Origin: Amphibalanus amphitrite | Lineage: Eukaryota > Arthropoda > Thecostraca > Balanomorpha > Balanidae | Assembly: GCF_019059575.1 (NCBI RefSeq) | Contig: NW_024881502.1 | Span: 1-64,000 of the forward strand | Length of the DNA stretch: 64,000 bases | Reading direction: 5' to 3' | In this document: positions 169-62,565 of the stretch, piece after piece | How the letters are laid out: each line of letters opens with the position of its first letter | Numbering within the stretch: position 1 is the stretch's first letter | Position numbers and translations under genes: made by a program | The notes under the pieces: model-generated | Database searches by the model: none | Told to the model about the DNA's origin: nothing | The model's input: only the letters and a program-made list of their open reading frames with translations

Positions 169-342
169 GTAACTCGGAGCTGGACCAGAATGTGGAGACG
201 GAGCCCAACTCACCGACCTACACGCGGCTGCTGCTCGAGTACGAGCGACACCTGCGCAACACACTGGCCAAGGGCGACGACGCGGAGTCCTACAGCCTGC
301 ACACGTTCGAGGCGCTGCTCTCACAGTCCACAGAGGACCTCG
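169..342 (+). CDS. sif: sif exon 1 in the window (internal exon)
   Basis: Acceptor cgcggcag before 169, donor gtaggt at 343, phase 1 on both sides. It encodes 58 residues including [16 protein letters not shown] and ending SQSTEDL, a conserved stretch upstream of the first PH of SIF. Its last 20 bases and the donor are the seed of the tandem array that follows. Confidence 0.85.
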
Positions 343-3300
343 GTAGGTGTCCAGTAGTCCACAGAGGACCTGAGTAGGTGTCTGGTGGTCCACAGAGGAC
401 CTGGGTAGGTGCCTGATGGTCCACACAGGAGACCTGGGTAGGTCCCTGATGGTCCACAGAGGACCTAGTAGGTGTCTAATGGTTCACAGAGGACCTCGAT
501 AGGTGTCTGATGGTCCACTGAGGACCTGGGTAGGTCCCCTGATGGTCCACAGAGGACCTAGTAGGTGTCTAATGGTTCACAGAGGACCTCGATAGGTGTC
601 CAGTGGTCCACTGAGGACCTGGGTAGGTGTCTGATGGTCCAACGAGGACCTGGGTAGGTGCCTGATGGTCCACTGAGGACCTGGGTAGGTGTCTGATGGT
701 CCACAGATGACCTGGGTAGGTGTCTGATGGTTCACAGAGGACCTGGGTAGGTGTCTGATGGTCCAACGCCGAGGACCTGGGTAGGTATCTGCCTTAATTA
801 ATACGGATAGGCGTATTAAGTAAGGCGGTGTGTGGCGACCGCTGTTATGCTTTGTGCTTCGTCTCAGGCTGATGTGTTCCCTGTGCTCCGTCTGAGGGCG
901 GTGACTGTTCTGTACTCCATCTTAGGATGGTATGTGCTCCGTCTGAGGGCGGTGTGTGCTCTGTGCTCCGTCTGTGTGTTCCGCGCTCCGTCTGATGTTG
1001 GTTATAACTGCCGCTGTGTCCCCGCTGCAGCCTCTGCCGGGACGGCGCAGCGGCCCGGCGCGGCCCCGGCCCGAGGGACGGCCGCCGCGGCCCCCGGCCG
1101 GCGGGATCAGAGGCCGCCCATGGGCCTCCCGGTCTCCACCAATGCCTCGTTCACACAGCCCACAACCAAGACCATGGGACTCGACTCGAGTCGACAAAAC
1201 ACGCTGCGAAGGTGAGGACAGATCTGCGAGGACAGGTGTGCTGCGTCATTTATATTTGACATAACTACTTGAAAACATTTTGAGCTTAAACTTTTTTACG
1301 ATGCTGGCGTTATTCTTCAGACTATGACCAGACACCCACGCTCCCAGAGTGCGCGCGATGTGCAGGATGTAGTAACTAGTCTGTCTGTCAGTGCGGCTGT
1401 GTCAGCTGGTTCCCGCCGGGTCCCCCAGGCACGCCTCGCTCAGCCGCCAGGACAGCGTGCGCTCGGGGTACGTCAGCGACCGGGAGCGGGGCTACGTGTC
1501 GGACCAGCAGGGCCCGGCGCGGCCCGGCACCCAGCCGCCGGCGCCGCCGGCCGCCCACCAGCGCATCACGCGACAAATCTCCTCCGAGAGCGCCGACTCC
1601 AAACTGTGCTACCTGACGTCATCTGAGGTAGGTAGCACCAGGTCTCTTCCGAGAGCGCCGACTCCAAACTGTGCTACCTGACGTCATCAGAGGTAGGTAG
1701 CACCACGTCCCCTCCGAGAGCGCCGACTCCAAACTCTGCTACCTGACGTCGTCAGAGATAGGTAGCGACAAATCCCCTCCGAGAGCGGCGAGCGCCGACT
1801 CCAAACTGTGCTACCTGACGTCATCAGAGGTAGGTAGCGACAAATCTCCTCCGAGAGCGGCGAGCGCCGACTCCAAACTGTGCTACCTGGCGTGATCTGA
1901 GGTAGGTAGCGACAAATCCCCTCCGAGAGCGCCGACTCCAAACTGTGCTATCTGACGTCATCAGAGGCTAATACAGGGTCTGGCCAGAGTCTGGCTCAAG
2001 TGCAGTTTTCCGTAGTTCCTGTTCCCCTAAACGGGATTAGCTGTTTCCATTACCCTTTTGAAATGATTGCCTGAGATCATATGTATATTGATATGCTGTC
2101 TCGATGAATAAGGCTCTTGGGAGTGGCTTTGGGGTGCAATACTGGCCATGTGAGGCCATTGTGGTTCAGTGGCTGAGTGGGAGGAAAAAACGAATTATCG
2201 CAGCGCCGAAATGCTACTTCCAATGACCTCGCCTGTGCCGGGAGTAATGACCGCTAGTAACACGGTAGCAAATTACTGAATAATTAAAACAACAATTAAG
2301 CACGCAGTTAAATTGATTTTTGGAGCTGATTTCGAATTTAGAAACTATTTGAACATTAACGAAGTAGTTTTTAAATTTGTTTTTATTATTATAAATTTAG
2401 TTCGAATGTTTGAATGGACGGATTGACAGAGCCGAGGCCCACGCTAAGCAGAGCTTGTTGCGTAGACCCCGACTCCTACCGCCCGATCACGCAATTCCGG
2501 GTAACGGGAGAATTTAGATACCAAAGTTTAACGTGCCCTTCAAAGCCGGACACGGCCTGTCCCACTCAACTGACTTCAACTGGCTGCGGATGCTCCCACC
2601 AACCGCAGACCATCCTCGTCAGGAGTCTCAAATATCGAGCGCCGGAGCGTCTCGAACCTCCGGGAGTCCGGTGCTCTACGAACTGAGCTACGGGACAGTT
2701 TTGGTGCCTTCGTAACATGCTACGAAGCTGTCAGAGGCGGTTGACACCTACTACGAATACCCGTCACGACCCCTACTGGTTGACCTGACCTGACCTGACT
2801 CGACCTGGTCTAAATGCTTACAGACATCATCTGTGATCAAAACTAACACGATATTCGTAATCAGCACCCCGAAAAACCCCATAGCAGCCACACTTTACGA
2901 CTTTCTAACAGGTCCCGATTTTCCCGACTTTTGGGTCATTGACCTGACCTGGGAGGTCAACCAATGACCTAGGACCTTAACCCGCGCCCCAGTGGCGGTC
3001 TCAGCCAACTTCGCCCTAGTGGGGGGGGGGGGGCATATGTTACCACCCACGTCTAACTCAAAAACTAAGAGGGCTAGAAAGACGCGGTAAAAAGCAGTCG
3101 ATAGCTCTCAATGCGTACGTTTGAAAATATTTCGGTCATTTTTCATCTTAGAGCAATATTGGGGTCACTGGAGGTCATCAAAGGTCAAAATTTGTCAAAT
3201 GTCATTATATTTCTCAGAAAACATGCATTTGTCTCAGGAACTATGATAGCTAGAAAAACGCATGGAAAAGCAATCGATAGCTTTTGAACTCTTCTTTTGA

Positions 3301-6300
3301 TAAGGTCGCTATCAAAATTGACCTTAGGTCAACGGTTTAGCCTCCAGAGGGCAAATACCCCAAAAATAGCTGTTTTTACGAAATGTGTTTTTCGACAATA
3401 ACTTTTGACTAAAAAAGCACAACGTTTCTATTGTCAGAATCATGTTCCTCTCGCCGAGACGCGTCAAATGCACTATAATTTGACCTTGAAAGGTCAACTT
3501 GAAAATTTGACCTCAGGTCAAGGTCATGACCTGACCGGAAAAGGTCATGTTGCATATCATTCGATGCGTCTCAACAAGACAAACATAATGAGACCATCCC
3601 CAGCGTCCTATCTCTTTCCAATCGAGAGTTATTGGCAAAAATCTGTTTGTAGCCTCAAATGACCTCTGATGACCTTTCTAGAGGCTATCAGCAAAAAAGA
3701 CACCTTGGTCGTCACGGGTGGTCCAAATCATTGTGATTCTGAAATATTTGGACTGTTCCTATGCGTACACACGGATCTAGAGGCATTTTCATTTTTCTCC
3801 ATTGACTTATAATGGTAAGGTCACGCCACTGACCTGACCTTAGGTCACGGATATAAAAAATCCGAGATATACAACTGGTAGGCGCCCATAACATCATGCA
3901 ATCCACCAAGTTTAAAACCTTTCTGACAAACACTGCAGGCTGGACATTTCAAACTTGTTTAGGCTTGGTCAGTTAACTTGACCTGGTGACCTGACCTGAC
4001 ATGACCTGGGGTCAAAAATTTCACACATTGTCCAAAATTGATGTACAAAAAGCTACTCGAAGCGGCGCGGCGCTATGCGCCGCGGTTTTTTATTCACACG
4101 CAAAAAACGCGACAGGGTGTTAACATATGCCCCCCCCCCCACTGGGGCGAAGGTTAAAATTGAGTATCATCGGCTTCGTCTCGTGACGGGCAGCACGCTC
4201 GTTTTTTCCGCGAAGCTCTAGCTCGATCAGGCGCCAAACGGCAAGGGGGGTCCAACCGACCCCCCCCCCTACACATTAGAAGCTGGCAAATGCCGCACAC
4301 ATGCGAGGGTTAAGACGTCGAGAAAGCTGTATTGTCCGGCCCGTAGACTCAGTCCGGCCCGTAGGCTCAGAGAAGAGGGCCTTTTCGAGATGTCGCGCCC
4401 GGACGACCCAGCGAATAGGGGTTTTATCGGGAGACCCAGTTGAGAGGGTCTGTCCCGGAGACGGGTGTCGGGGAGAGGGTCCCGGACGGCCGCACTCGGA
4501 GGCTGGAGAAGAGGGGCTGTCGGGATAGGTTATCGGGTGTCCCGCCCGGCTGCGGCCGGAGACCCGGAGAAGAGGGGCTGTCGGGTGTCCCGGTCGGAGG
4601 CCGGAGAAGAGGGGCTGTCGGGTGTCCTGGTCGGAGACCGGAGAGGAGCGGCCAGGGGCTGTCGGGTGTCGCACCCGGCCGCGGTCGCCCCGATCGATCG
4701 CGGCGCCGTCCGCCGACGGGCAGCTGTTGCATCTCTGCTGGCGAGGTCGCCGCGCGGCCCAGTCGGCCATTGATTCGCAGAGCATCCAGTGCGCCGACGC
4801 GCCGGCCGCCGTCGATCGGGGCCGCCCACCACACCCAGTGGCAGTGACGCCGTCCCGAGCTGGCCCAGTCCGGCCAGAGGCGCAGCACGTCCGCGGCGCA
4901 GCGGCCGGCCGAGCAGCGCGGCGCGGACAGCGGCTGCCGAGGCTGGGACCGCGGCGCGGCCAGCTCCGGCGACAGGGCGCTCCTCCGACCGCGGTCTGCA
5001 CAGAGCGTCCCGTGCTCGGTCAGCGGACGGTGACGTGCCGGCGGTGTCCCGGGTGTCTGCGCGCGACGGTCTCCGTCGTGCGGAGAGTGCCAGGAGGCGG
5101 CTGCAGCCGGCGCTAGCCCGGTCGATCCAGACGAGACGCCCTCGATACTGTGACGAATCGGCTCGGTCGTCGGCGCGGGGCGGCGCTCTGCCGTGCTGGT
5201 TGCTCAGTGATCGGTGTGAGGCGGCGCTCTGCGAGCTGGGTGCTCAGTGATCGGCGCGGGGCGGCGCTCTGTGAGCTGGGTGCTCAGTGATCGGTGTGAG
5301 GCGGCGCTCTGCCGAGCTGGGTGCTCAGTGATCGGTGTGGGGCGGCGCTCTGCCGAGCTGGGTGCTCGGTGTTCGGGCTGAGCTGCTGAGCGGGCTGACA
5401 GAGTGGCGGCGGATCCCCCGCTCTCAGCGGTAGGAGCCACCGGGGCTGGCCTACTCAGTGATCGGGGTGAGCCGCTGAACGGGCGGCGGCGGCGGTGGAT
5501 CCCTGCTCTCGGCCGTGGAGGAGACCCCGGGGGCTGTTTGGTCCGACTAGTGACGTCATCTACCCCAGGCGGAGCGCCAGAGGCCGAAGGTCACGGCACT
5601 ACCGTGACGGTCATTGAGGTCAAGCAACGACCGGCTTCCGATCTGCGAGCCTGCTTATCGAGTGTGCGCCCCTGCAGTCATCGTTACAGTCACAATCAGT
5701 CACAGTCACAGTAACGGCCACAGTCAGTCACAGACACAGTGACAGCCGGTTAGAGGAACATCGAGCGCCGCGGCGCGGCGGCCGGTCGACGGTCCCATTT
5801 CGCTGGCGGAGACGGGCGCTCGTTCAGACTGATGGAGGTGACACCGCCGCCAAATGAGCAACATGGAGACGCTAAATTACCGAAAATGACAGTGGGAGCC
5901 TCCACATCGGTAACGCTGGCGGGATAGCCCAGTGCCATATTTGTGCAGCGATGGGGGAGACGTATATGATTTACAAGGAGCGCCGGCAGAGGAAACAGCT
6001 GGAGTCGGCCCACGAGCGCTCCACGCGCCGGTTCATCAAATTCCTCCAGGTAGGGCGGTGACGGGGGCCAGCGCTGAGCGGCATCTCCAACTGGTAATTG
6101 GTGATGAATTCAGGAATCCACGTAGTGCTTACTGCCTACATATGAGAACGGCCATAGATAACGACCTCATTTATGTAATCCATTGAGCAGCACACTTACG
6201 TGTGACGTTCTGTATGGCTTTGCTGACAGAGCAGGCGCTCCTGAGCCCGAGAAATGAGTACCTATTGTTCAGCCTGTCGCTCAACTTTAGTGGGATAGTT

Positions 6301-9300
6301 GAGGTTTATACGACAGGTGCCTCAGGGCTCCACATAGGGGTGGGTGACGTCAAATGAGACGTTTGAAACTGCGTCACGAATGACTTACTTATCTTGCTGC
6401 CTCGCTCACATGCTCATACCTACACCGCCTCTGGAAACGAATGTTTGCTTTACTGTACCGGCAGCGTTATCGGTCGGGCTCTATTATTGTTCTATTCGTC
6501 GTGTCATTACCAGCTTGAGACTGGATCAGTGTCCTACCTGGCTTATGTCTCGTACCTAGGGCTCTGCTGCCTCAGTGTCCCAAGAACTCTGCCATGTGAA
6601 AGTTTCATACCTGCTGATGTGAGATGTTCTGGGCTTATTCTGGGCTGGAGCTCAGGGTGCGTCGACTTCTAACAATTCATGTTGCACAGATAAAACAAGG
6701 TCGGTCACATATTCACTAGTGGTTCGCAGGAAATGTCACAGTGCAGTGGTCTGTGGGCTATCGAACGACGTGCTTTCGATCGCCATTGTTCTTGCCCGCA
6801 TAGCATAGGCATTCTACTGGTGTGCAATGCTTTTTCGACATGACTAGCAATTCGCAACTGACCGTAGGTCATCTTGTGACGCTTAGAAGTAAAATTGATA
6901 GTAATTGACACCGCGCGTTCGATGTCTCGGACGACGAAGATTCTACGTCGTCCGGCCAGTCCCGTTCAAGTTCAGCGGGGGCTCGGCTGCGGCTATGGAA
7001 CGTGATTAGCCGGACGGCGTAGAATCTTCGTAGTCCGAGAGACATCGAGCGCGGGGCCGTAAGTAGCTTCAGTGCCATTATTGGGCGGGCGACAATTTGC
7101 TGGATGGATACGTATGCGGGCCGTGACCTTTGTTGACCTCTCTAGGTAAAACGACTAGGAATGCCGCCAAATGCCTTGGGCCATGCAATCTGTACTACAA
7201 TAATTTTGTCGTCTGCGGGTTTCAAGTCGATCCGATGTGCCCATAACCTGGTCTGAATGCGGGTTAAATGTGGGCTCACTATGGACTGTTTTCACTAACG
7301 TGAGGTCAGGGTCGTGAGGTCTGGTTGACCTCTGACCCCGGTCCCGCTGCCGGCAGATGTCGGACGACGACCGGATGTCGCTGACCCCTGACCTCTGGTC
7401 TGACCTCTGACTGACCTCTGACCCCTATCCCGCTGACCTCCGACCCCGGTCCCGCTGCCGGCAGATGTCGGACGACGACCGGATGTCGCTGACGACGGCC
7501 GTCAGTGACGAGGACGAGGAGGCGGCAGAGGCGTCGCTGCACGCCTCGCCCTACCGCGTCTCGCGCTCGGGCAGCTCGGCGGCTTCCTTCAACTGCACGG
7601 GCGCCGTCCGCAAGGCCGGGTCAGTCGGCGGGGCCGCGCTACACGCGGACACACGGCTACACCCGTACACAGACACACGGACACACGGCTACACCCGTAC
7701 ACAGACACACGGACACACGGGTACACCCGTACACAGACACACGTCTACACCCGTACACAGACACACGGGCATACGGGTACACCCGTACACAGACACACGG
7801 ACACACGGCTACACCCGTACACAGACACACGGACACACGGGTACACCCGTACACAGACACTCGGACACACGGGTACACCCGTACACAGACACACGGACAC
7901 ACGGGTACACCCGTACACAGACACTCGGACACACGGGTACACCCGTACACAGACACACGGACACACGGGTACACCCGTACACAGACACACGGACACACGG
8001 GTACACCCGTACACAGACACTCGGACACACGGGTACACCCGTACACAGACACTCGGACACACGGGTACACCCGTACACAGACACACGGACACACGGGTAC
8101 ACCCGTACACAGACACTCGGACACACGGGTACACCCGTACACAGACACACGGACACACGGGTACACCCGTATACAGACACACGGACACATGGACAAACGG
8201 TCTCACAGACACACGAACATACAAAGACATAAGACGCAGGCAGGTTTGGGATAATGGGTGCCAACCTGCCTTAGTGTAAGAACGTTTGGCAGAATGTAAA
8301 GAACGTAAGAACGGTGAAGAACGTAAGAACGCTCCTTTCGGTGAGGAAGTGGCTGTTACTGCTGCGTTGGGCTGTAACAGCTGTGCTGTGCTGTGTTGTG
8401 ACTGTAACAGTTGCGCTGTGACTTTAGTTGCTGTGTTGTGACTGTAACTGCTGCGTTGTGTCTCTAACTGCTATAGTGTGGCTCTAACTGCTGTACTATG
8501 GCTGCCACCTCTGTACTCCCGGCTGTAGCTGTTGTGCTGTGGCTCAAATCGATGTGCTGTGACTAACTGCTGTGTTGTAACTGCTGTGTTGTGTTGTGCT
8601 GTGCTGTGCTGTTTGGCAGGTTCCTCTCGGTGAAGAAGTGGCTGTAACCGCTGTGACAAACTGCTGTGCTGTGCTGTAACTGCTGTGCTGTGGTGTAACT
8701 GCTGTGCTGTGGCTCTAACTGCTGTGCTGCGGCTCTAACTATTGTGCTGTGGCTCTAACTGCTGTGCTGTGCTGTTCGGCAGGTTCCTCTCGGTGAAGAA
8801 GTGGCTCCTGCGGAAGAAGCACCAGGTGGAGCTGGCCCGGAAGCGCGGCTGGAAGGGCTACTGGGTGTGTCTGAAGGGCACTACGCTGCTCTTCTACCCG
8901 TGCGAGTCGCGCGAGGGGCGCAGCATCGAGCAGGCGCCCAAACACCTCATCATCGTGGACGGCGCCATCATGCAGTCCATCCCCGAGCACCCCAAGCGGG
9001 AGCACATCTTCTGCCTGAGCACGGCCTTCGGAGACGCCTACCTGTTCCAGGTGACACGCCAAAATGAGAAACAGCGACCGATACAAATCACATAATATTA
9101 ACTATCGTACAATACTATGTATAAGTTTCGCTAAAATTTGATCATAAATTTTGAGCTGACCACAGCTTTCGCCTTTCAATCAGATGGGCTGGAATGTGGG
9201 GGACTGGGTTGACATTATTACTGTACAAATGCCATTCGTTAGCAAGCATTGCGCCTTCCATTTGGTCCGGACCGCGGCGACGCCTGACATGCCGGCGGCA

Positions 9301-12300
9301 CCAGTGACCTGACGCCCCGGCCCCGCCCTGTGGCAGGCGCCGTGCCAAGTCGAGCTGGAGAACTGGATCAACAGCATCCACAGCGCGTGCGCGGCGGCGT
9401 TCGCGCGCCACCGCGGCAAGACGGGCACGCTGCACCTGCTGCAGGAGGACATCTTCCGGCTGGAGCGCTCCATTGAGTCGGTAAGTGACGCGCGCGGGTC
9501 AGTCGGGCCGAGTTTGCCGACCACTGACCGCGGGCCCCGACCTGCGGCTATATGATTCTGTGCGGGGTATGTAGGCCGTTCGAGGCCGGTTCCTCCCGCG
9601 GTCTGTCCGACACTGAGCGGATCTGGCTCCCGGCGGCAGGACTCGAAACTGAAGTACATGGCGGACGTGCAGCTGAGCGTGGTCTCTGAACAGGACCGGG
9701 AGGAGCTGACCTCCCAGCTGGCCAGCTACGACGACAGCCTGGAGCGGCTGCACTGCGAGCAGTTCCGGCTGCGCTGCTACATGGCCTCGCTACAGGGTGG
9801 CGAGCTGCCCAACCCCAAGGTCAGTGGAATACCTACCGCTGCATTTCAGCGACGGGACGTTGGACTATCTATCGGACTTATCCCGCGTCGTCCTAATTCA
9901 GTGACCTTACTGACGCACGTCTGTGTCCCCCAGGGTCTGCTGACGCACGTCCATGTCTCCGAGGATCTGCTGACGCACGTCTATGTCCCCAGGGTCTGCT
10001 GACGCACGTCTATGTCCCCAGGGTCTGCTGACGCATGTCTCTGTCCCCCAGGGTCTGCTGACGCACGTCCATGTCTCCCAGGGTCTGCTGACGCACGTCT
10101 ATGTCCCCAGGGTCTGCTGACGCGCGTCTGTGTCCCCCAGGGTCTGCTGACGCACGTCTATGTCCCCAGGGTCTGCTGACGCACGTCTCTGTACCCCAGG
10201 GTCTGCTAACACACGTCTGTGTCCCCAGGGTCTGCTGACGCTGTCCTCTGTCTCCAGGGTCTGCTGACGCACGTCTGTGTCCCCAGGGTCTGCTGACGCA
10301 CGTCTGTGTCCCCAGGGTCTGCTGACGCACGTCCATGTTTGACGCACGTCCATGTCCCCCAGGGTCTGCTGACGCACGTCTCTGTACTCCAGGGTCTGCT
10401 GACGCACGTCTGTGTCCCCAGGGTCTGCTGACGCACGTCCATGTTTGACGCACGTCCATGTCCCCCAGGGTCTGCTGACGCACGTCTCTGTACTCCAGGG
10501 TCTGCTGACGCACGTCTGTGTCCCCCAGGGTCTGCTGACGCACGTCTGTGTCCCCCAGGGTCTGCTGACGCACGTCTGTGTCCCCCAGGGTCTGCTGACG
10601 CACGTCTGTGTCCCCCAGGGTCTGCTGACGCACGTCTGTGTCCACCAGGGTCTGCTGACGCACGTCTGTGTCCTCCAGGGTCTGCTGACGCACGTCTGTG
10701 TCCCCCAGGGTCTGCTGACGCACGTCTCTCGCGTCACCAAGATGACGCTGAACCGGCTGGGCGTGTTTAACGTCTCCTCGTTCCACGCCTACATCTGCGC
10801 GCGCAGCCCGAGCCTGTTGAACAACCTGCTGGCCGGCCGCGGCGCCACCAAGCGGCGCGCTCCCATGCTGTCGCGCAGCGGCAGCGGCGGCGGCAGTCGC
10901 TCCTTCAGCCACGAGAGCGGCGACGAGCGCACCTACCGCGTCCGCATGCCCGACAATCAGGTGCGTGTGTCAGCCGCGGCAGTTAGGGAGGGCCGCCAGG
11001 TGTATATCCAATGTTTTTGTGTCAGATTAACCGTCTTTCTGACAGCTGTCAGGCGTCGCATATGTTTTAAGTCGACATTTGCTGATTGTGTGCGCCGAAT
11101 TAAAGTCACTCTTGTAACCCTGCTTTTGCATAAATGACAGCGATTTCCTTAAGTGCTGTTTTTAGACTGTTGTTATTCGACTTCGAGAGAGTATGACCGC
11201 TTTTTATGCTGTTTTCAGTATGTTGTTATTCACCTGCGAGAAGGTATGACGGTCGAGGATTTCCTAATATCGGCCTCTCTGAAGAAGAATCTCAATCCCA
11301 TGGAGCAATTCGTGCGCGTCAAGAAAAGAAGAGACATGGAGGCGACCAATTACTTTGTGCCGCATCACTCCGACCTCATCGACACTTACGTAAGTATCAC
11401 TTTTCATCTAATATTTTTAGTTCACTCAGCATTGTCAGCAATGTACTGGTCGTCCGCCGTCCGGTATTCGCCGGCATTGGTCCTCACCAACTACTCCTGC
11501 ACAATACCCAGGCCGATTTTAAGTGAAGTTAATAAGATGAAAAATAATAGAGCTGGATACCCTTTTGGTTTGACCTTCCTGTTTTCAAGAGCAGTGTTAC
11601 GCAGTTTCCGTTGGCTTCGGTAGGGAGTGAATGTTTTTTTTTTTTTTTACCCAGCGACGAGCAGTCGCCACCCATTGCAAAAGTGGTTGTGAAATCCTAG
11701 CCCGGCGCCTCGTCCTGCTAATGCCCCAGTCACACTCCAGAGTCCAGTCCATCCCGCCGGCCGCCTGTGTATTCTCCCAGTCACAGCCCGGTCCATCCCT
11801 CGGCTGACGGGTCGCTGTGTGTTCTCCCAGTCATAGCCCGGTCCGTCCCGCCGGCTGACGGGCTGTGTGCTCTCTCCCAGTCACAGCCCTGTCCATCCCT
11901 CCGGCCGCTGACGGGTCACTGTGTGTTCTCTCTCAGTTGCAGACGCACGAAGTGTGCGAGATCTGCACCAAGGTGCTGTTCCAAGTGGAGCTGTCACGCT
12001 CGGCGCAGGACCAGATGTGGGGCTTCAGCGTGGAGGCCGAGCTGATTGAGAACGTGGACCGCCAGGACGAGCTGTGCTGCTACATCTCCCGGGTGGAGGA
12101 CCGCTCGCGGGCCGCCCACAACGGTGCGTGCCGCGGACGGCCGGCCGGCTGTGTATACAGCTGTGCGCTGCTGGGGGGTGGGGGTGAGGTTTGCTGTTTG
12201 GTCTGCTGTGCGTCTGAGTGTTTGTGTGACCGGAGGTGGTGTGTTTTCTCTCTCACCCAGGCCTGATCCGCGGTGACGAGATCATGGTGATTAACGGCGC

Positions 12301-15300
12301 GATCGTCTCGGACCTGGACATGATGTATCTGGAGTCGGTGCTACAGGAGGAGCTGGCGCTCTGCCTCATGATGCGCTCCTCCCGCACAGAGGTCAGTACA
12401 TGCTTGGTTTGGGGACCGCTCTCCTTTATGAGACGCCGATCGTGCCCTCTCGATATTTTGGACCCTTCAGCTATGCCGGTACTTATATGCCGGAATTTAT
12501 CGTTCGCTCTTTTGCATACTTGGCGGCAAAGGAACTCACACTGAGTCGTCCTACTTCAGTGCGTCAGCAGTCGGGTGTACGCTGTACGGCGTACATACGC
12601 GTCCCCGTGGGTGCCTCGCCCGGTGTGCGCCATACACGTCCCCGTGTGTTGTGCGCTGTACACGTCCCCGTGGGTGCCCTCACCTGATGTGCGCTGTACA
12701 CGTCCCCATGTGTGCTCCCGCGCAGGTGCCGGACGTGGCCAACCTGATGAAGTCGACCGACGACATCATCGAGCGGCTCGTCTGCCCGCCGCCGCCCTCT
12801 GAGAACACCGTGCGAGACGACGACATCGACAACATGATCGTGCCCAGCGTCAAATCCTGGGGTGAGTCGCCGCAACACGCTACCTGCTGAGTGGCCCGGC
12901 GGTGCCCGATCAGGACACGGGGACATCGGACTGAACGGGTGGGCGCGTTAAACTAGAGGCATATGGATTTATAGGATTCAGAGTAATTCGTGATAATTCT
13001 CTGTCTGAGACTGTAAAGTCATATTTAAACCCAGGTATGTTAATGATAAGAAGTTGGCGAGACCGGGCGTCCTAAAAGCACGCGACTTAAAGAACACGTA
13101 GCAGCCATAAAGCATGGGAGGTCAGACACATCCCCTTTAGCTGAACACTGGCTCCAGTGTCGCCAACCATTTGACCCAGGTCAGGCCAGCACGCTGGTGG
13201 TCGAGCCAACATGGTCCCGCGTGTCGTAAGGGAGGCCATCGAGATTCGATTATGCAACCCATCACTGAATCAGGGTGTCGGAAAGTTCTCGCTTAGCCCC
13301 ATATGGGATAGTGTTTTGAAAAAGTAGACCTACTGGAGTACGAACTGTCTGTAAGTTGTGTCACGTGTTTTAGCATCGATCATTTTGAGAATTTCGTTGA
13401 TGGCGGGGATGGCGGTATAGCATGATTATTGCTTGTTTTTTTTTTTTAATCGCATTGCCCCTTTGAAGACCTATCAATAAAGGTCGCAGTACAGGAAAAA
13501 GGCTTCTTTACACCCAGAGTCAGTCCGCTAAACGAATTCTTATCAATTCTCTGTCTGTAAAAGGACTGACGTATGCATCTGGGAAATAATGAAATGCATT
13601 TTTTTTTTGGCATTCTGCTCTACAATCCTATGCATCACCATCTTCAGGTATTTTGGAGAAGGTGATGAGTACGATTTCGATTTTTAAATGCGTTTCCATT
13701 TCTATTTGTTACCCGGTTTATATCTTTCCTCGATTGTCACAATTTGACGTAATCTAACAGCGGGTGTCGGTGTTTGTCAGGTCGTCAGCGGTCGGCCGAC
13801 ATCGAGGGTTGTCCGCCGCCGCCCTCAGACACGTCCGACCGCTCCAATGTCTCCTCCGTCGAGATCGAAAACCTGCTCAAGGTGGGTCACGGGCCGTGGG
13901 CAGCAGAGGTCAGAGCGAGGACAGAGTCTGCGAGCAGAGGTCACCGAGAGGATAGAGTCTGGCAGTAGTCACCGCGAGGATAGGGCCTGTGAGCAGAGAT
14001 CAGGGCATGGGACCAGATCAGAGGCCATGTTAGAGTTTACCGCTGTCTGTTCTCAGAGTGTCACGCTGTCGTTTGTCCTCTCTGGTGACTGGTATCTGTT
14101 CTCACTTCTCAGAATGCCACGCTGGTGAAGGGCTACTGTCGTTAGTTCTCTCAGTGCCACGCTGGTGACTGCTGTCTGTTTTCAGAGCGCCACGCTGGTG
14201 ACGGGCTACTGTCATTTGTTCTCAGAGCGCCACGCTGGTGACGGGCTACTGCCGCTCGCCGGCCGAGTCGGCGCGCGGCCCCTCTCCCACGTCTAGTGTG
14301 GCCTCCAGTCAGAGTCAGACGGCCACGCCCAACCGACACCTGAGCGACGCCGACAAACTGCGCAAGGTTCTCACCGAGCTCATCGACACGGAGCGCACAT
14401 ACGTCAAGGTAAGTACCCGCGGCTGGGCGTGACGTGACGGAGACAGGTGGTCGGGCAAACAAAACTGGAAACATTGTACTGTGGTGCTACTTGGCACTCG
14501 GGTTAGGCGACCACCAGCTGCATTTCTAGGTGCCTGGTCATTGAGTGTTGGCACTGTGACGAGCCCAGCGCTGACTGCCCGTTCTGCCCTCCTGTTCCAG
14601 CACCTGAACTCGCTGATAGACAACTACCTGGAGCCGCTGCGGCGCGAGTCGTTCATCACCCCGGCCGAGATTAACGCCCTGTTCGGCAACATTCCGGAGA
14701 TCGTCGAGTTCCAGCGCGACTTTCTGCAGAGCCTGGAGGAGGCCGTCGAAATGGAGCCCAGCCTCGGCCGGCTCGAGACGCCAACCCAGTTTAAGGTCGG
14801 AATCTCCAATCCCTTCCCGTACACACACTCACATACCCCTTCCTTATTCAATGACGGTCTAATGGCATGATGAGAAAGGATGTACTGTATCAGTTTTTTA
14901 TTGAAATTGGCGTCGATAAACACAAATGTCGAACCCATCCTGCCCTCATCAAGTTGTAACTTTTAATTGCAAACTACAGGTGTTTTACATCATTGACTGC
15001 TACGCATTTTGGTTATGTCACGTCTTTCGGGATACGCTTTTCTATTTCATGACTTGTTATTGGAGTACAAATTGGATTTGCAAAACACGTAATCCCTGCT
15101 TCTTCTGACCACAGCTCTCTTTTTTTCAGAACGTATTATTCTCCATAGGAAACGCCTTTTTATATCACACAAATAGTTTCAAGCTGTATAGTTCCTTCTG
15201 TGCCAGTCACTCGAGAGCTCAAAAGGTTCTTCATCCAAGTGAGTATTCCTCGGTACTGTTTGCGCATATTGCCGTAAGTGCGAACGAATTTCCATTACGC

Positions 15301-18300
15301 AAATTGCACTCAATAATCTCGGTCAACAACTTAATTTATGATGGTCATTATATTCGTGTCATGACCATTGACCAATAAACACTTATTTCGGAAATAAACT
15401 TCACAGATATATTCATTTGATCATCAATCGACATCATAATCAAAGGACAGGTACTTATCCTTGTTTTGTATTAAAGCTCAGTGTCTGCCTCAGTTGGCTG
15501 CCAGCTCCGTCGCCCGGTGGTCGCTCCCGCCGGGCTGTGTCTGTCGGTGTATTCCGCCCCCGTCTGACGCCGCCGGCCCGCCGCCACCCCGGCAGGCGAG
15601 GGGAACCAGCAGCTGCAGCAGTTCCTGCAGCGCCAGAACCCGCGCCAGCAGCACTCCTCCACGCTGGAGAGCTACCTCATCAAGCCGATCCAGCGCATCC
15701 TCAAGTACCCCCTGCTGCTGCAGCAGCTGCGGAACCTGGCGGACCGACAGTCGGGCGAGCACCACCACCTGGAGGGTGCGTACCGGGCCGGTCCCCGGTC
15801 CGGTCCCGGGTCTCGGTACCTGCCCCCGCCAGTCTCGGCCGGGGTGGGAGCTAACGTCTCAACCCGTGTGCTCATTCAACGACGCAGCTTATTTGGCCTG
15901 CGTATGCACTTCTTCTGTGTGCAATGCTTCTGCCAGTTTTTCACGTGTCCTTTTGTGTCCGTCTTCTCGTCTGTCTCTCAGCTGTGTCCGAGGTGATTTT
16001 CCAGTCAATTATCGATAAAATCCACGTCTCTATAGTCTCAGTCGTTACCATTGTGTTGTTCTGTGTTCCGCAGAGGCGCTCAAAGGCATGGAGAAGGTGG
16101 CCGAGCACATTAACGAGATGCAGCGTATCCACGAGGAGTATGGAGCCATCTTCGACCACCTGTTCCGGCAGCACCAAAAGTCCACCAAAATGGTGCTGCC
16201 AGTCGCCTCGGTCAGTACAGTGGTGCCGTCCGATCAGTCGCTCTTATATTCAGGCTTCGTGGATCGGGCGGGGTTGATCTGACTGTCGATTGTATGTAGT
16301 GCTCGTTTGAAGCGCGACTTATGTGATACTTTTGATTACTTGCCTTATTTTTAGTTTCATGGTCGGATTAAATATTCAAATAATATTGTTTTACCCATTG
16401 ACGGAGGTAGCGTGTCCTCCCAGCCGTAAAGAGGTGGCTGCCGTCGCCGTCTGACGTCCCCTCCCCCCCCCCCCCTGTTCGCCGGCCGGTGGATCTGACG
16501 TCCCCTGTCCGCCAGCCGGTGGATCTGAAGGCTCCCCTCTGTCCACCAGCCGGTGGATCTGACGCCCCCCCCCTCTGTCCGGCAGCCGGTGGATCTGACG
16601 TCCCCCCCCCTCTGTCCGGCAGCCGGGGATCTGACGTCCCCTGTCCCCCAGCCGTTGGATCTGACGTCCCCCCTCTCTGTCCACCAGCCTGTGGACCTCT
16701 CGCCGGGCGACCTGCTCTACTATGGCGGCGTCGAGTGGCTCAACATCGCCGACTTCCTAGGAAAGATCAAAAAGGGCCTCGAACTGCACGCCATGTGCTT
16801 CGTCTTCAAGACGGCCGTTGTTTTCTTGTGCAAGGAGCGGCTCCGTCAGAAGAAGAAGCTCATGGTGAGAACCTCTAACTCTGACAGTGAATTTGATTTA
16901 TTGGTTTCATGTAGTGCGATGTGTTTTCAGTCATCTGTCTGCGTTTCGAACTGCGCCCAGCTGCTGCGATTATCACAGCGGCCGGTTCTGACTGTGGCCG
17001 TGCGCCGTTCCGGCAGAGCGCGCCCAGTAAGGGTAACCCGGCCGAGGTGGAGATCATCCGATACCAGGTGCTCATCCCGGTCACCGAGGTGCAGGTACGC
17101 GCCTCATCGTGCCGCGACGTCGAGAACCACTACCTCTGGGAGCTGATCCACCTCAAGTCGCAGATTCACCGGCGCAACGAGAAGGTCTACCACCTCTCCA
17201 ACAGGTACGGGCCGCGCGCCGGGCGGGGAGGGCGGACACTTCAGAGGACCGCGCCGCCCGCGCCCTGTGCGGGGCGGGCGGGCAGTGCGAGCCACACACC
17301 ACGAGCGACATGACATAGGGAAATTAACCACTGATATAGCAAGACGTCCTTGAAGTTATTCAAAGAATATTAGTTTAACGTAATTATGATAATGTGCCCA
17401 TATTTTTTCGGGTAATTGCTTTTATTTTACTGTTTGCATACAAAAGCAGAAACATTGCAGTTTCCTTACTAACACTTCATGACTAATTTGTTTATTTTTT
17501 AGCACAAGTGACTTCCGGAACGCCTTTCTGAAGACGATCCGGCAGATAATTCGGGAGAGCGTGCGTAACATGAGCATCCCGGTGACTAAGGCGTCCAACT
17601 CGACCTACAAGACGGGCACTCTGCAGCCGTCGCGCACACTCAGCATGCGGAAAAAGATGCAGAGCAAGGGCCAACGCTACTCGGCCGGCATGTGTGAGTG
17701 ACCCTGTCCCCGGTCAGAGATCTGACTGCTCAGACTGTATGGCCCGGTTCTGGTTAGATATCTGACTGCTCAGACTGTATGGCCCGCTCCCTAGTCAGAG
17801 ATGTGACTGCTCTGACCCTGTATGGCCCGGTCCCTGGTCAGAGATCTGACCCTGTATGGCCCGCTCCCTGGTCAGAGATCTGACCCTGTATGGCCCGCTC
17901 CCTGGTCAGAGATCTGACCCTGTATGGCCCGGTCCCTGGTCAGAGATCTGACCCTGTATGGCCCGCTCCCTGGTCAGAGATCTGACCCTGTATGGCCCGG
18001 CCCCTGGTCAGAGATCTGACCCTGTATGGCCCGCTCCCTGGTCAGAGATCTGACCCTGTATGGCCCGGCCCCTGGTCAGAGATCTGACCCTGTATGGCCC
18101 GCTCCCTGGTCAGAGATCTGACCCTGTATGGCCCGCTCCCTGGTCAGAGATCTGACCCTGTATGGCCCGGTCCCTGGTCAGAGATCGGACCCTGTATGGC
18201 CCGGTCCCTGGTCAGAGATCTGACCCTGTATGGCCCGGCCCCTGGTCAGAGATGTGACCGCGCAGACTTTATGGCCCGGTCCCTGGCCAGAGATCTGCCT

Positions 18301-21300
18301 GCTCAGACTATAATTTTAAAGCATGGTTAACTTACTGGTAATTTCTTTGAATTTATTTCCCTATGATTAAGTTGGCGATGGTTTTTTAACATCTAATGAT
18401 AATACAGGGAGTATGATTCACCGCTGCCAATATGGCAATATCGACGTCGCTGAATCACGCTATCTTCATCCCAGCTGAATGAATCCGCTGCAATCACGTG
18501 TGTGACGCTGCCGGCCTGAAGAGCTGTGGTCGTCCCCCCTCCCCCGTCCCTATGGCGGCTCACGGCCGTGTGTATGCCCCTGTGACGGCTCACGGCCGTG
18601 TGTATGCCCCTGTGACGGCTCACGGTCGTGTGTATGTCCCTGTGACGGCTCACGGTCGTGTGTATGCCCCTGTGACGGCTCACGGTCGTGTGTATGTCCC
18701 TATGGCGGCTCACGGCCGTGTGTATGCCCCTGTGACGGCTCACGGTCGTGTGTATGTCCCTATGACGGCTCACGGTCGTGTGTTTGTCCCTGTGACGGCT
18801 CACGGTCGTGTGTATGCCCCTGTGGTGGCTCACGGTCGTGTGTATGTCCCTATGACGGCTCACGGTCGTGTGTATGTCCCTTTGGCGGCTCACGGCCGTG
18901 TGTATGCCCCTGTGACGGCTCACGGTCGTGTGTATGTCCCTATGACGGCTCACGGTCGTGTGTTTGTCCCTGTGACGGCTCACGGTCGTGTGTATGCCCC
19001 TGTGGCGGCTCACGGTCGTGTGTATGTCCCTATGACGGCTCACGGTCGTGTGTTTGTCCCTGTGACGGCTCACGGTCGTGTGTATGTCCCTGTGGCGGCT
19101 CACGGCCGTGTGTATGTCCCTGTGGCGGCTCACGGTCGTGTGTTTGTCCCTGTGACGGCTCACGGTCGTGTGTATGCCCCTGTGGCGGCTCACGGTCGTG
19201 TGTATGTCCCTATGACGGCTCACGGTCGTGTGTTTGTCCCTGTGACGGCTCACGGTCGTGTGTATGTCCCTGTGGCGGCTCACGGCCGTGTGTATGTCCC
19301 TGTGGCGGCTCACGGTCGTGTTTTTGTCCCTGTGGAGGCTCACGGTCGCCCCTTCCCCGGTCCTGTGGCGGCTCACGGTCGTGTGTATGTCCCTGTGACG
19401 GCTCACGGTCGCCCCTTCCCCGGTCCTGTGACGGTTCACGGTCGTGTGTATGCCCCTGTGACGGCTGTGACGGCTCACGGTCGTGTGTATGTCGGCTGTG
19501 ACGGCTCACGGCCGTGTGTATGCCCCTGTGGCGGCTCACGGTCGTGTGTATGCCCCTGTGACGGCTCACGGTCGTGTATTTGCCCCTGTGACGGCTCACG
19601 GTCGTGTGTATGTCCCTGTGACGGCTCACGGCCGTGTGTATGTCCCTGTGACGGCTCACGGCCGTGTGTTTGTCCCTGTGACGGCTCACGGTCGTGTGTA
19701 TGTCCCTGTGACGGCTCACGGTCGTGTGTATGCCCCTGTGACGGCTCACGGTCGTATACCCCTGTGACGGCTCACGGTCGTGTGTATACCCCTGTGACGG
19801 CTCACGGCCGTGTGTATGCCCCTGTGACGGCTCACGGTCGTATACCCCTGTGACGGCTCACGGTCGTGTGTATACCCCTGTGACGGCTCACGGCCGTGTG
19901 TATACCCCTGTGACGGCTCACGGTCGTATGTCCCTGTAACGGCTCACGGTCGCCCCTTCCCCGGTCCTGTGACGGCTCACGGTCGTGTGTATGCCGGCTG
20001 TGACGGCTCACGGTCGCTCCGCCCGTTCTGCAGCGGCCACCATCGACTACGACAACCTGGACGGCTACCACGAGGCGGTGTCGGGCAGCGAGACGAACCT
20101 GCGCCGGCGCAGCCGTACAATGGACGCCTCGTCCGGCCACCCAGGTCCGCGGCCCGGCCTCAGACCAGGTCACACGCCGCCCAGCGGTCGACAAACGGCG
20201 CGCGCCTATAGTCGTGTTCCATTTCCCTGACAGCTTCATGTCCCGAGCTGTTGGAGCAAGACGATGCTTTTTCGTTTCATAGTCAGAAATTCAGTAAAAC
20301 ACGTTCTTGCGATATCTTTATCACCATATCCTTGGCAACGCAAGCAGCATGCCTGGACTGACTCGGTGTGTTGTGACGATCCGCCGCGGCCCCAGTCCGT
20401 ATATGTGCCCCCCTCCCCGCCCATGCTCCCGCAGGCCGGGCGTTCCGCCCCAGGCTGTGTCGCTGTGACCCCCCCCCCCCCCGCCCCGCCGCTCCGGCAG
20501 GCCGGCCGGGCGCCCCAGGCCGCGCTGTGACCCCCCTCCCACGCCGCTCCGGCAGGCCGCGCTGTGACCCCCCCCCCCGCCGCTCCGGCAGGCCGCGCTG
20601 TGACCCCCCCCCCCCTCCCCCGCTCCGGCAGGCCGCGCTGTGACCCCCCCCTCCCCCCGCCGCCGCTCCGGCAGGCCGGCCGGGCGCCTGTAACCCAGGC
20701 CGCGCTGTGACCCCCTCCCCCGCCACTCCGGCAGGCCGTGCTGTGACCCCTCCCCTCGCTCCGGCAGACCGCCTGTGACCCAGGCCGCGCTGTGACCCCC
20801 CTCCCCCCGCTCCGGCAGGCCGCGCTGTGACCCCCCGCCCCACCCCTGCAGGCCGGCCGGGCGCGCTGGGCGATGACGGCTCGGACGTGCGGGACGACAC
20901 GTCTCGCTCGGACGTCGAGGAGGAGGAGGAGGCGCTGACGCGCCGCTGCGGCCAGCTGGGCCGCATCCCCAACCACCTCAGCCTGAGCACGTCCAGCACA
21001 CTGTCGGCCGGCAGCACGGGCAGCCAGGCGCGCCTCATCCAGGCCAGCAACGCGCCCGAACACTACCAGCCGCCGCACGCCCGCGCAGCAGGTACCACAC
21101 TGACAGCAGCTCGTATAAGACCTTTTTCACAAAGCTACCTCCAATGTTTGAATTGAAGGATTGACCGAGGCAGAGCTGGAGCCCACGCTATGTGTGCAGA
21201 GCTTGTTGCGCAGACCCTGGCCCCTACCGTCCGATCGGGCAATTCCGGGTAACGGGAGAATTTATGTACTGGAGTGTGTAATAAATGTCCATAAAAGCCA

Positions 21301-22982: not shown

Positions 22983-25838
22983 GATTCCCGGATGAAAAGT
23001 CAAAACGTTAAAAGTAAACGGATAAAAAGTCAAAGGACATTAAGTCAACAGACAGAAAGTCAACATCGCAAGAAGTCAAAGGACAAAATGTCAAATGAAC
23101 AAAAAGTCAACCTGCCAAAAAGTCAACACGCCAGAAGTCAACAAGCTAAAAGTCAACACGCAAGAAGTCAAAAGACAAGAAGTCAAAGAGACAAAAAGCC
23201 GACATGTCAAAAAGTCAACGCGCTAAAAGTCAACACGCTAAAAGTCAACACGCATAAAGTCAACACGCAAAAAGTCAAGACGCTAAAAGTCAACACGCCT
23301 AAAAGTCAACACGCTAAAAGTCAACACGCTAAAAGTCAACACGCGAAAGGTCAGCATGCTAAAAGTCAACACGCTAAAAGTCAACATGCTTAAAAGTCAA
23401 CACGCTAAAAGTCAACACACAAAAAGTCAACAAGCAAATAGTTTATAGGTGCGCGAAAAGTTGATGCGCAAAATGTAGTCAACAGCAAAAAGTAGTCTTC
23501 AACAGCAGTCGTTAACTAAGTCGGTACAAGTACGCCGCAGCCCGCGTCTCCGGTCGGCGACTGACCCGCGCCGGGCCACCTGATCCCCGGCCGCCGCTCG
23601 CTGGGCGCCGGCTGCACCGCATAGCGCGTCTCGGCGCGTCCCCGTACGTGCCCCGACACTACCGATAAGAACGCTCCTACCTATTTTTACTTTGCTTTAA
23701 AAAGTATATTGGGAATGTGAACTTATCTATATAAAGTTGGCGTACTGTGCCTGCTGGTGGCGGGGGGGGGGGGGGGGGGCAGTTCCGATAAGGAGACGTA
23801 GGGCGGAGGCGAAGATGAAGGAGAGGGACAGTAACTGGTGGCCACAATGCGCTATACTTGTCACCTCTCTTTGGACGTCACAGCTCCGAGGTCCTAGAAA
23901 ATTGTGTTTTTAGCAATCGCATCTCGATAACTTAATTGACCTTTACATTTCGATGAAAATTGGTCACCTTGATTGTATGCAGTCCGTGAATATTAACAGG
24001 TTGTTGTCTGTTGATGCTGATATGAGCGTTCCTTTCAAGGCAGGACAATCCGACAATCACACAATTGCCTCTCGTTGAAACTTCCACCTATCTAAAAAAA
24101 CGACGCGCTTTACTATTGTACCAATTGTACCATACAATACGCTTGAACTATAATAAAAGTGTGAAATCGCTAAAAGAACCCGTGACGGAATCAATTGATG
24201 AGAAACGTCTCCCTAGTCCCTACTCAATATAGGAAATTTGAACAAGCGAACCTTTCGTATCGATGACATTCCGGGTTACTATATTTGTTGAAATAATTCC
24301 AGTAAACTGCGCCTGGGACAGCCAGTTGTCTCGAAGGATCATGTAACGCTGCCTCATGACAACCTTACGATGCGAGCGAGCTCCCACCTAGCACGTAAGT
24401 GTCAACGGATGTGGTCAGATTTCAGCCAAGCATGCCCGTGTGACCAGCTGAGTCGCGGTTGCGGGCCATGGGAATCCCCATCAGTCGCGCAATGGAGGCA
24501 GTCTCGCTTCAATGTCCAATGATGCAGGTTATATTGTGCAGCATCCTGCTTAATTGTGTACAGCTGTTTGTAAATGTTATCTCATGTATGTAATGACTGA
24601 TGATCCAGGTGTCATTGACTTTGTCTCTTTGACTTGTCCTTTTGAGTTTTTGGATTTTTGGCTTTTTGTTGCGGTTATGTAACGCTCTCCGTCCGGCGAT
24701 TGCGGCTTCGCTCGGCGCTGTGGCGGGGTGCACTTGTATTTGAGCGCGCCTCGCGCGGTCGCTCCGCGCGGCCACCGGTGCGGGTGCCCGCGTATGTGAA
24801 ACGAGTGTGCTGTCACGTGATGACCGAGCCGAGGTCAGGGTCTCCCGCCGGACGGTGCGTCAGTTAGTTTGCAGTACTGACTCAGACACCACCTCCCGCC
24901 GACCTCTGACCGCCGCCCATCCGATAGCCAGGCCGATTGGTTTATGGTACCATGAAGGCTGGTATTCTCTGCTTTTAAAGACCTGGGATTTCGTTCCGGG
25001 TTTTTAAGCACTCATTTATTGTATCGTTAATTTTATTATCGTATGCTTTTGTTTGCCCGCACGTTTTCATAGCCCGCATACGGTCTAGAGGCAATGCAGA
25101 CCTATTTTGCATATATTCTTTCCGTTAAGGGGTATAACAAGGAGAACCGACACACGGGTATTTTGTACCTTCTTTGGCTGACGTTTAAGCATACAGTCCA
25201 CGTTCTCTCACACGCAGCGAGCCGCCGGCAACACTTTTTTCCTTTGGATTTTTCGTAATTTGACTTTATGTCCTGTTGACTTTTCGTCTTTTGACCTTTG
25301 TCCTCTTCACTTTTTGTCCTTTTGACTTTTTGTCCCTTTGATTTTTTGTCCTTTTGACTTTTTGGACTTTGACTATATGTCTTTTTGACTTTTTGAACTT
25401 TTGACTTTTTATTTTGACTTCATGCCCGGTTGACTTGTTGTTTTTTTTGACTTTTTGTCCTTTTGACTTTCTGTCCTTCTGGTTTTTTTGATTTTGACTT
25501 TATGTCCTGTTCACTTTTTGTCTTTCGACTTTTGTCCTTTTTACTTTTTGGCAATTTGACTTTTTGCCGTTTTTACTTTTTGTCTTTTGACCTTATGTCC
25601 ATTTGACTTTTTGTCTTTTGACTTCTATGCTAGTTGACTTTTTGTTCATTGACTTTTTGGCAATTTCACTTTTTATCTTTTGACGTTTTATCCTTTTTGA
25701 CTTTTTGCCTTTTGACTTTCCTCTTTGTTGACCTTTTACCTGTTGACTTTTAAGATTTTTGACTTCGTGCTTTTGACGTAATGTCTGTTGACTAATCATC
25801 CTTTTACCTTTTATTATTTGACTTTTTGTCCGGAACCC
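22983..25838. mobile_element. foldback-type element with tandem-repeat inverted arms and 10-bp target duplication
   Basis: The 10-mer GGGACGGGGC stands directly at both sides (22973-22982 and 25839-25848). Ends are alignable without gaps: GATTCCCGGATGAAAAGTCA at the left, GGGTTCCGGACAAAAAGTCA as the reverse complement of the right. The left arm (about 22993-23520) is a tandem of AAAGTCAACACGCTA-like units. The right arm (about 25240-25832) is the inverse, GACTTTTTGTCCTTT-like. The 1.7-kb middle is unique, with no transposase. Arms made of tandem repeats plus a 9-10-bp duplication recall Drosophila FB and Mutator-like elements. Confidence 0.82.
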
Positions 25839-35400: not shown

Positions 35401-35902
35401 GCCTCTGAGAGCATCACACCGGTACCTGTGAGCTGTGAGGGCCCACACCAGTGCCTCCAAAGGCTTCATAACCGGCGGCCCTGAGGGCCCTAGGCCTACA
35501 CGGGTGATTTTGAGGGGCGTACCGAAGGCACCACACAATCCCTTCGTCTCGCTGAGCTTCTATCCCAATCCCATACCGGCTTCTATCCCAATTCCGGCTC
35601 AACTAATTATCAGCCCCCCTCCCCCTCCATGGGTCAGCAGCGCCGCGCCGGTGTCGGGGGCCAGCGCCATTGGGGCGGCAGTCGGCCACGCGCACTCAGT
35701 GGTTAGCGCTTGCACCGGCGGCTAGCGCACGCCCGGTGTGTTATCGGCCGTGAGCCGCTCCAAAACGGCTGCAGTAACTGGTCGATATAGGTAGTAAGCA
35801 GATGCAGAGATGCAGGTGGATAAGGTATGTGCCCTTTCCGATCGAAGCATGTGCCCTATGCCACCTTTGGGACGCAGTAAAAAATCCTTAAAATATGCCC
35901 TG
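32432..35902 (+). mobile_element. hAT-like non-autonomous element, copy 1 (3,471 bp)
   Basis: Flanked by the perfect 8-bp duplication AGAATTGC (32424-32431 and 35903-35910). Ends CAGGGCATATTTTAA / TTAAAATATGCCCTG, the CAG...CTG termini and 8-bp duplication of hAT elements. The left third has diverged repeats of a phrase near ccgattgcgctcaaatttgg with CACGTGC hairpins. The part around 34690-35520 is a degenerate array of words like ctctgagggccccacaccgg. The longest frame is 180 codons and shows no hAT dimerisation or catalytic motif, so transposase must come from elsewhere. Confidence 0.92.
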
Positions 35903-41455: not shown

Positions 41456-41942
41456 AGCAGCGCGGGTACCTACTGGGTGGCCAGTACACGGACTGTAGTC
41501 AGCAGCGTGGGTACTGGGTGGCCAGTACAGGGACTTGTGTCAGCAGCGCGGGTACTGGGTGGCCAGTACATGGACTGGTGTCAGCAGCGCGGGTACTGGG
41601 TGGCCAGTACTCGGACTGGTGTCAGCAGCGCGGGTACTGGGTGGCGCCGGTGGCCAGTGTAGGGACTGGTGTCAGCAGCGGGGGTACTGGGTGGCGCCGG
41701 TGGCCAGTGTGCAGTACACGGACTGGTGTCAGCAGCGCAGGTACTGGGTGGCACCGGTGGCCAGTGTGCAGTACACGGACTGGTGTCAGCAGCGCGGGTA
41801 CTGGGTGGCGCCGGTGGCCAGCACACGGACTGGTGTCAGCAGCGCGGGTACTGGGTGGCGCCGGTGGCCAGCACACGGACTGGTGTCAGCAGCGGGGGTA
41901 CTGGGTGGCACCGGTGGCCAGTGTGCAGTACACGGACTGGTG

Positions 41943-45242
<3,300 letters not shown>

Positions 45243-62200: not shown

Positions 62201-62565
62201 CCGGATTCAGCCCAGATTCGGGACATCTCCGATCAAGCTGAAAATCGCACAAAATGTAGGTCCTGACATGCCCATTCCACAGTCCGAGTCATTCGGTGGC
62301 ACTCCCAGCCGTTTGACCTACAGAGGTAAGCAAAGGTCACGTGGCCCAAATTTGCACAGCAGATTGTGGCCCACCCAGTAGAGCTAGAGCGCTAAAAATG
62401 GCACCAATCGACTCGCCAGCATCTAATCTTACTTTCCCAACACTCATTTGACCTCTCAAGGTCATGTGATGACCTAAGGTCATTTGTGGGCTATGTCGAA
62501 AATACACTTGCACAGCAGTTTTCGAGTAGAGGAATTGACCGAATTCCAAATCAAAGCACATAATC

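Follow-up and report, generated by a model that had tools for sequence, protein, structure and literature searches.

The human gene 6-16 (IFI6) carries a minisatellite with multiple splice donors, whose tandem unit includes a splice donor beside the exon, and there it is a matter of one gene and one array. In addition, potato RdRp is reportedly a case of intron gain by tandem duplication of AGGT. Then, could repeats that copy a splice junction occur at many junctions of the same gene? Here, we consider a stretch of 64,000 nucleotides from the barnacle Amphibalanus amphitrite (RefSeq assembly GCF_019059575.1, contig NW_024881502.1, positions 1 to 64,000), hereafter the window, in which tandem arrays lie over the exon-intron boundaries of a sif/TIAM-type RhoGEF gene, sif. 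An earlier sequence-only reading of the window knew of no description of such arrays, but tandem repeats over exon-intron boundaries have already been named "mirages" in amphioxus (PMC3087553, PMC3902484). According to these two reports, mirages are known in Adh3, troponin C, the globins BflGb6 and BflGb9, and PGBD5; their units of 10-160 bp cover a donor or an acceptor, and AG or GT is present in many, not all, of the copies. The same reports describe splicing as apparently undisturbed, with globin gene haplotypes that differ in copy number and somatic instability at Adh3 (PMC3087553, PMC3902484). Minisatellites that sit at exon-intron boundaries in human segmental duplications can also give rise to introns (PMC2812944), and the model of Rogers, named in PMC3087553, derives new introns from the tandem duplication of an AGGT-containing exon.

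Arrays over the splice junctions of sif

The gene was rebuilt exon by exon, with all 23 introns GT-AG and a single frame open across 1388 codons, and the model that uses the exon-side splice sites stays open over its whole length. The Pfam domains PH, Tiam_CC_Ex, RBD, RhoGEF and PH_Tiam1 were identified in the product, with PDZ below the cut-off, and the closest structure in PDB is 1foe (TIAM1, E value 1.9e-113). Judged from its sequence, the plus-strand gene is a sif/TIAM RhoGEF and its name is correct, because of this domain set and of TIAM1 as the best solved relative. The gene is located right at the beginning of its contig (C5, 2.68 Mb) in an assembly of 807.6 Mb and 2644 contigs. All 40 matches of the paralog search (72 candidates, 34 of them scored) are on C5 and on one other contig, C2438, and a distant paralog is possible.

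All 47 junctions of sif were submitted to a strict test, that is, the 24-mer centred on the junction should recur within 160 bp with at least 20 of 24 matches. Seven junctions passed it, namely the E1 and E3 donors and the E5, E9, E10, E15 and E20 acceptors (E1 to E24 being the coding exons), and the rate in block-shuffled sequence is 0.0000 at the same threshold. The copies of a junction were counted by a sliding probe scan of 10 preselected junctions of the 47, where the E24 probe has 33 background matches in 41.8 kb and the other nine probes have 0-7. The main arrays have periods of 30-65 bp in Tandem Repeats Finder (TRF). The gene and its arrays are as follows.

169..22086, plus strand: RhoGEF gene of sif/TIAM type; 24 coding exons; 5' portion beyond the contig end; stop codon 22084-22086
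326..791, plus strand: E1 donor array; exon end 342; 31-bp unit; true junction and 12 copies; GT kept in 10/12
1570..1967, plus strand: E3 donor array; exon end 1627; unit of ~65 bp, 58 bp of it coding; 5 extra copies; GT kept in 3/5
7314..7500, plus strand: E5 acceptor duplication; exon start 7465; junction copy at 7357, 22/22 probe bases identical
7641..8219, plus strand: intronic array, 32-bp unit, no exon copied; begins ~21 bp past the E5 donor
8330..8790, plus strand: E6 upstream array; exon start 8783; mostly a 20-bp intronic unit; exon edge copied at 8620 and, in degraded form, at 8331
9910..10727, plus strand: E9 acceptor array; exon start 10709; 30-bp unit; 25 extra copies; AG kept in 25/25
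11152..11232, plus strand: E10 acceptor duplication; exon start 11219; 53 bp apart, diverged; 1 extra copy, at 11166
11737..11942, plus strand: E11 upstream array; exon start 11937; polypyrimidine tract and AG copied, exon part weakly similar; 2 extra copies, weak
14053..14251, plus strand: E15 acceptor array; exon start 14226; ~40-bp unit; 4 extra copies; AG kept in 3/4
16466..16700, plus strand: E20 acceptor array; exon start 16688; ~36-bp unit; 5 extra copies; AG kept in 4/5; 3 in frame and stop-free
17702..18309, plus strand: intronic array, 34-bp unit, no exon copied; begins ~8 bp past the E22 donor
18548..20017, plus strand: intronic array, 30-bp unit, no exon copied; stops ~16 bp short of E23
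20408..20855, plus strand: E24 acceptor array, C-rich; exon start 20852; 9 extra copies; AG kept in 9/9; short exon part; the weakest case

TRF and self-comparison thus place an array, with slightly different limits, at every sif site that the sequence-only reading had named. Five of its seven arrays are as it described them, while those at E6, with the mostly intronic unit, and at E24, with a short probe and its 33 background matches, are weaker; the E5 and E10 acceptors were absent from its list. Its statement that the repeat units combine coding sequence with a splice signal holds, as the E3 unit shows, and so does its statement that true sites adjoin near-identical decoys: there are 66 decoy copies, and 59 of them retain GT or AG. 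Scored with a splice matrix trained on array-free sif junctions (21 donors and 16 acceptors), 35/66 decoys equal or exceed their own true site.

As for the reading frame, 29/66 decoys are in frame (44%, against the one third expected) and 37/66 would shift it, counts that are not independent since the unit lengths are linked within an array. Twelve decoys are both in frame and stop-free (8 at E9, 3 at E20 and 1 at E24), the eight at E9 being the nearest ones of that array, whereas 17 in-frame decoys add a stop. Selection for in-frame decoys was consequently rejected as weak. The match rate is 0.939 at the splice dinucleotide and 0.875 over the rest of the probe (Fisher P 0.03, copies non-independent), a difference too small for such copies, and selection on the decoy dinucleotides was likewise rejected as weak.

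By eye, two other features are seen within the long intron between E3 and E5. One is a possible alternative first exon of sif at 5951-6049 on the plus strand, with a GTAGGG donor at its end, and the other is an inverted repeat at 6911-7054, with arms of ~45 bp, which resembles a small hairpin element.

Occurrence in other genes and elsewhere in the window

Junction-spanning arrays are not special to sif. We sampled exons of the myosin head, kinesin and tyrosine phosphatase families, taken regardless of repeats; the 178 exon-match entries, less 8 that read through introns, gave 170, which correspond to 141 distinct places with 200-bp flanks and, after near-identical copies were collapsed, to 102 exons in 33 genes, that is, 204 exon ends. 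Note that these ends are the ends of profile matches, and the true edge may be ~10 codons off, as was seen at contigs C789 and C282, and that parts of C52 and C1610 (loci L017 and L036) had been scanned for repeats before further stretches entered the sample. With shifts of 14-160 bp covered, junction-spanning repeats were found at 7/204 ends (3.4%, 95% interval 1.4-6.9%) in 6/33 genes; the corresponding counts are 0/1020 for shuffled flanks and 68/1044 for nearby random noncoding points.

Judged by eye, five of the seven ends are clear and two are weak, which makes four clear and two weak genes. In one phosphatase gene (C688), the core of a donor array is present in four exact copies, and a second phosphatase gene (C63) has an acceptor duplication of 88 bp. 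A kinesin gene (C789, locus L045) has an acceptor array of 45 bp, and the other two clear ends are the donor array of C975 and the acceptor array of C865 (L065). On these last two contigs the kinesin gene is the same, its copies being 93.8% identical, so that two of the seven ends belong to one gene; C975 also has an acceptor array, outside the seven because its match was dropped, with 3 copies against 2 on C865, and at this identity the two are perhaps paralogs. The weak ends, on C282 (decoy GT lost) and C1610, rest on one 24-mer each. One clear acceptor array, on L037, lies in one of the dropped matches and is therefore outside the 7/204, although it is one of the 6 sample arrays in the seeding null described below. 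Those 6 spanning arrays have shifts of 45-88 bp, with a TRF period of 113 for one of them. In addition, an intronic array beside a kinesin exon (L038/L039, 2396-2626) differs in length by 16 bp between two contigs that are 99.4% identical, which is likely allelic.

By the same test, copied exon ends are 4.3 times as frequent in sif (7/47) as in the sample (7/204; Fisher P 0.006), and repeated noncoding 24-mers near exons 7.5 times (0.313 vs 0.042). What makes sif conspicuous is the unusual abundance of arrays in its introns.

A gene presumed on the minus strand of the window shows two more arrays.

41471..41994, minus strand: array over the point where coding presumably ends; unit of the last codons, TGA (41945-41943) and 3' flank
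42223..42776, minus strand: intronic array beside the presumed last-exon acceptor; exon start 42213; begins 9 bp from the acceptor

The first of them contains 10 copies of its unit, from 41965 down to 41521. The intronic array beside the last exon and the amplified 3' end with its stop, both reported in the sequence-only reading, are present, but the exon, the acceptor and the stop are only presumed: there is no Pfam match in this gene, no closed model of it was obtained, and the coding frame is itself a presumption. If the frame is coding, an array over a stop codon is what tolerance at coding boundaries would predict, and not what a splice-specific process would.

Two further repeat features of the window were recorded by TRF. 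A satellite with a 478-bp unit occupies 59270-62567 (6.9 copies, 91% matches). Mirror sets of tandem repeats, with CGGCC/GGCCG runs and oppositely oriented units of 22 bp and 25 bp, lie at 32639-35432 and 48750-51543; their arrangement suggests a large inverted repeat pair, which may represent a mobile element present twice.

Position of the arrays and their origin

Is the birth of arrays tied to the junctions? Repeated 24-mers make up 30.8% of the intron-only and 1.7% of the exon-only 24-mers of sif. By position, their rate is 0.13 just inside the exon and ~0.10 over the initial 12 bp of the intron, and it is 0.19-0.25 deeper in introns and 0.06, dropping to 0.00, deeper in exons. For comparison with chance, units were seeded uniformly or with GC stratification over 42 of the 74 sample loci (220 exon ends; the loci of C789 and C865, which are within the 7/204, are outside these 42). 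From AT-rich to GC-rich noncoding DNA, the pooled density of arrays rises roughly ten times, from 0.13 to 1.2-1.7 per kb, and in the sample alone it goes from 0.10 to 1.36 per kb and then to 0.52 in the GC-richest bin; exon edges are GC-rich. In sif and the sample together, the 13 spanning arrays exceed the 4.7 expected under uniform seeding (P 0.001), but after GC stratification the expectation is 8.1 and the excess is reduced to P 0.07; in the sample alone, there are 6 against 5.4. A hotspot at the junctions was therefore rejected on the present evidence, by the position profile and the GC-stratified counts, with a near-exon excess and one nominal P value, both given below, remaining. A preference for acceptors was also rejected as weak, since the comparison of acceptors with donors shows no difference in number (P 0.42 and 0.21).

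Based on these patterns, we regard the arrays as GC-rich "mirage" minisatellites that are tolerated wherever one true boundary survives, with a probability of about 0.7. Short tandem duplications, mostly of ~20-110 bp, would be frequent here, chiefly in GC-rich DNA, and would grow by slippage or unequal exchange. Because GC-rich DNA is array-dense and exon edges are GC-rich, many duplications would strike the exon edges. Those within coding sequence would be purged by selection, whereas a duplication that straddles the exon and its outside leaves the true boundary intact, and could thus survive and grow into the intron or the 3' untranslated region. The splice signals seen in the copies would be kept through the general likeness of the copies, with no clear sign of selection on the decoys. 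The exon-side copy would mostly be the one spliced, and some decoys may yield alternative products. Much of the pattern follows from the birth of arrays in GC-rich DNA and their failure to persist inside coding sequence, and neither a process tied to junctions nor selection for the arrays, the two explanations offered in the sequence-only reading, is needed on the present evidence, given that repetition does not rise above the intron level, that the stratified counts are 13 and 8.1, and that the presumed stop codon has an array as well.

Some observations weigh against this tolerance of GC-rich minisatellites as the whole explanation. The array richness of sif is left unaccounted for, and sif alone has 7 spanning arrays, against 1.9 expected with uniform seeding (P 0.004) and 4.0 with GC stratification (P 0.11). 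When the threshold is raised to 22/24, the GC-stratified comparison becomes 11 spanning arrays vs 6.1 (P 0.047), and at 23/24 it is 9 vs 5.6 (P 0.11). Arrays that span exon ends or lie within 60 bp of them number 29 vs 16.4, a 1.8-fold GC-stratified excess (P 0.003), with half of the 29 coming from sif, a gene picked for its arrays; taken separately, the near-exon counts are 14 vs 9.0 in the sample (P 0.07) and 15 vs 7.4 in sif (P 0.009). An excess of ~1.6-2 times is thus unaccounted for, and a weak tie of arrays to junctions may exist. Younger transposon-derived sequence in the intron interiors, if present, may add to the near-exon excess.

The near-exon excess and the count at 22/24 would be expected if a mutational process at exon edges, such as breaks linked to transcription or to R-loops, or a stalling of replication at C-rich polypyrimidine tracts, seeded the duplications, and it fits such a process that a C-rich tract just before the acceptor lies inside the repeat unit of the C975 kinesin gene, and likewise at E20 and E24. 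However, repetition at the junctions is not above that of the introns, the spanning excess only reaches P 0.07 at the main threshold, acceptors and donors are alike, and the array over the presumed stop codon requires no splice site; besides, by reasoning, a copy frozen in the exon would keep its array recognizable for longer, and this alone could give part of the excess. We therefore consider an exon-edge process rather unlikely. Somewhat less likely still is the broader proposal that minisatellites are genuinely born at exon edges genome-wide, through transcription or the GC- and C-rich context of splice sites, which would steadily lengthen introns and supply alternative splice sites, some of the arrays (sif E9 and E20) being splice-selected coding repeats.

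It is very improbable, as far as the sequence tells, that the arrays owe their retention to a function, with decoy acceptors giving alternative exon starts, in-frame peptide repeats or a tuning of splicing. The 12 decoys that would add in-frame, stop-free sequence speak for such a use; the frame counts as a whole, with 44% in frame against the one third expected and most decoys shifting the frame or gaining a stop, speak against it, and so do splice dinucleotides that are barely better kept than other positions. An assembly artefact, with repeats expanded or misplaced by the assembler, would be conceivable in a highly repetitive region at the very start of a contig. C2438 carries the same sif gene, and three insertions of kilobase size set it apart from the window (~1.7 kb more at 11620, ~2.9 kb missing at 22983-25838 and ~3.5 kb missing at 32433-35902), which are probably insertion polymorphisms between haplotypes. 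Despite these differences, the 15 array spans match on C2438, 12 being equal and 3 within 5 bp; the contigs are 99.3-99.97% identical in large aligned blocks, and for this reason the agreement is only weakly independent evidence. The copies inside the arrays are also diverged and the units irregular, and 4 other genes clearly show a like architecture, with 2 further weak cases. The sif arrays are consequently unlikely to be an assembly error, and an artefact as their general explanation has hardly any probability.

Comparison with known systems

The 7/204 exon ends sampled in an arthropod genome suggest that boundary-spanning minisatellites are not an oddity of amphioxus. In sif, where as many as 25 near-identical splice sites compete at a single junction, there is a natural experiment in which the choice of the spliceosome among equal sites is testable; it also allows tests of whether introns grow or are gained through such arrays, and of whether more arrays are born along exon edges. 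Such loci are at the same time a warning for gene prediction and for the mapping of short reads.

Searches directed at crustaceans or barnacles in the open-licence full texts of PubMed Central (PMC) yielded no description of arrays of this kind, and the text of a study on Daphnia tandem repeats (PMC3152781) is without "splice" or "exon-intron". What is new here is the occurrence of boundary-spanning mirages in an arthropod, their density in one gene and a measured frequency. Among the scanned junctions of sif (10/47) and the sample arrays, all copy one boundary only, and no intron lies between two duplicated proto-splice sites as in intron gain by AGGT duplication. The arrays resemble that process in that tandem duplication generates extra splice signals, and differ from it in that there the new intron arises inside an exon, between duplicated AG and GT, whereas each array here copies one intron boundary. 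Compared with the human segmental duplications (PMC2812944), the likeness is in the ~30-bp units at gene boundaries, with novel splice sites sometimes used there, and the difference is that the human repeats are in recent paralogs, about half of them in coding sequence.

The amphioxus mirages are the closest to the arrays of the barnacle. In both, the unit spans the exon-intron boundary (here at 7/47 sif junctions by the strict test, with E6 and E24 partial and E11 weak, and at 7/204 ends elsewhere), the splice dinucleotide is present in many but not all copies (59/66 here), and the unit is within ~10-160 bp (30-65 bp in sif, with shifts of 45-88 bp in the sample). Unlike amphioxus, a cephalochordate, the animal here is an arthropod, with up to 25 extra junction copies per site and at least 7 junctions affected in one gene. 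In amphioxus it is allelic and somatic instability and RNA that have been studied, while here the frequency over sampled exons is given.

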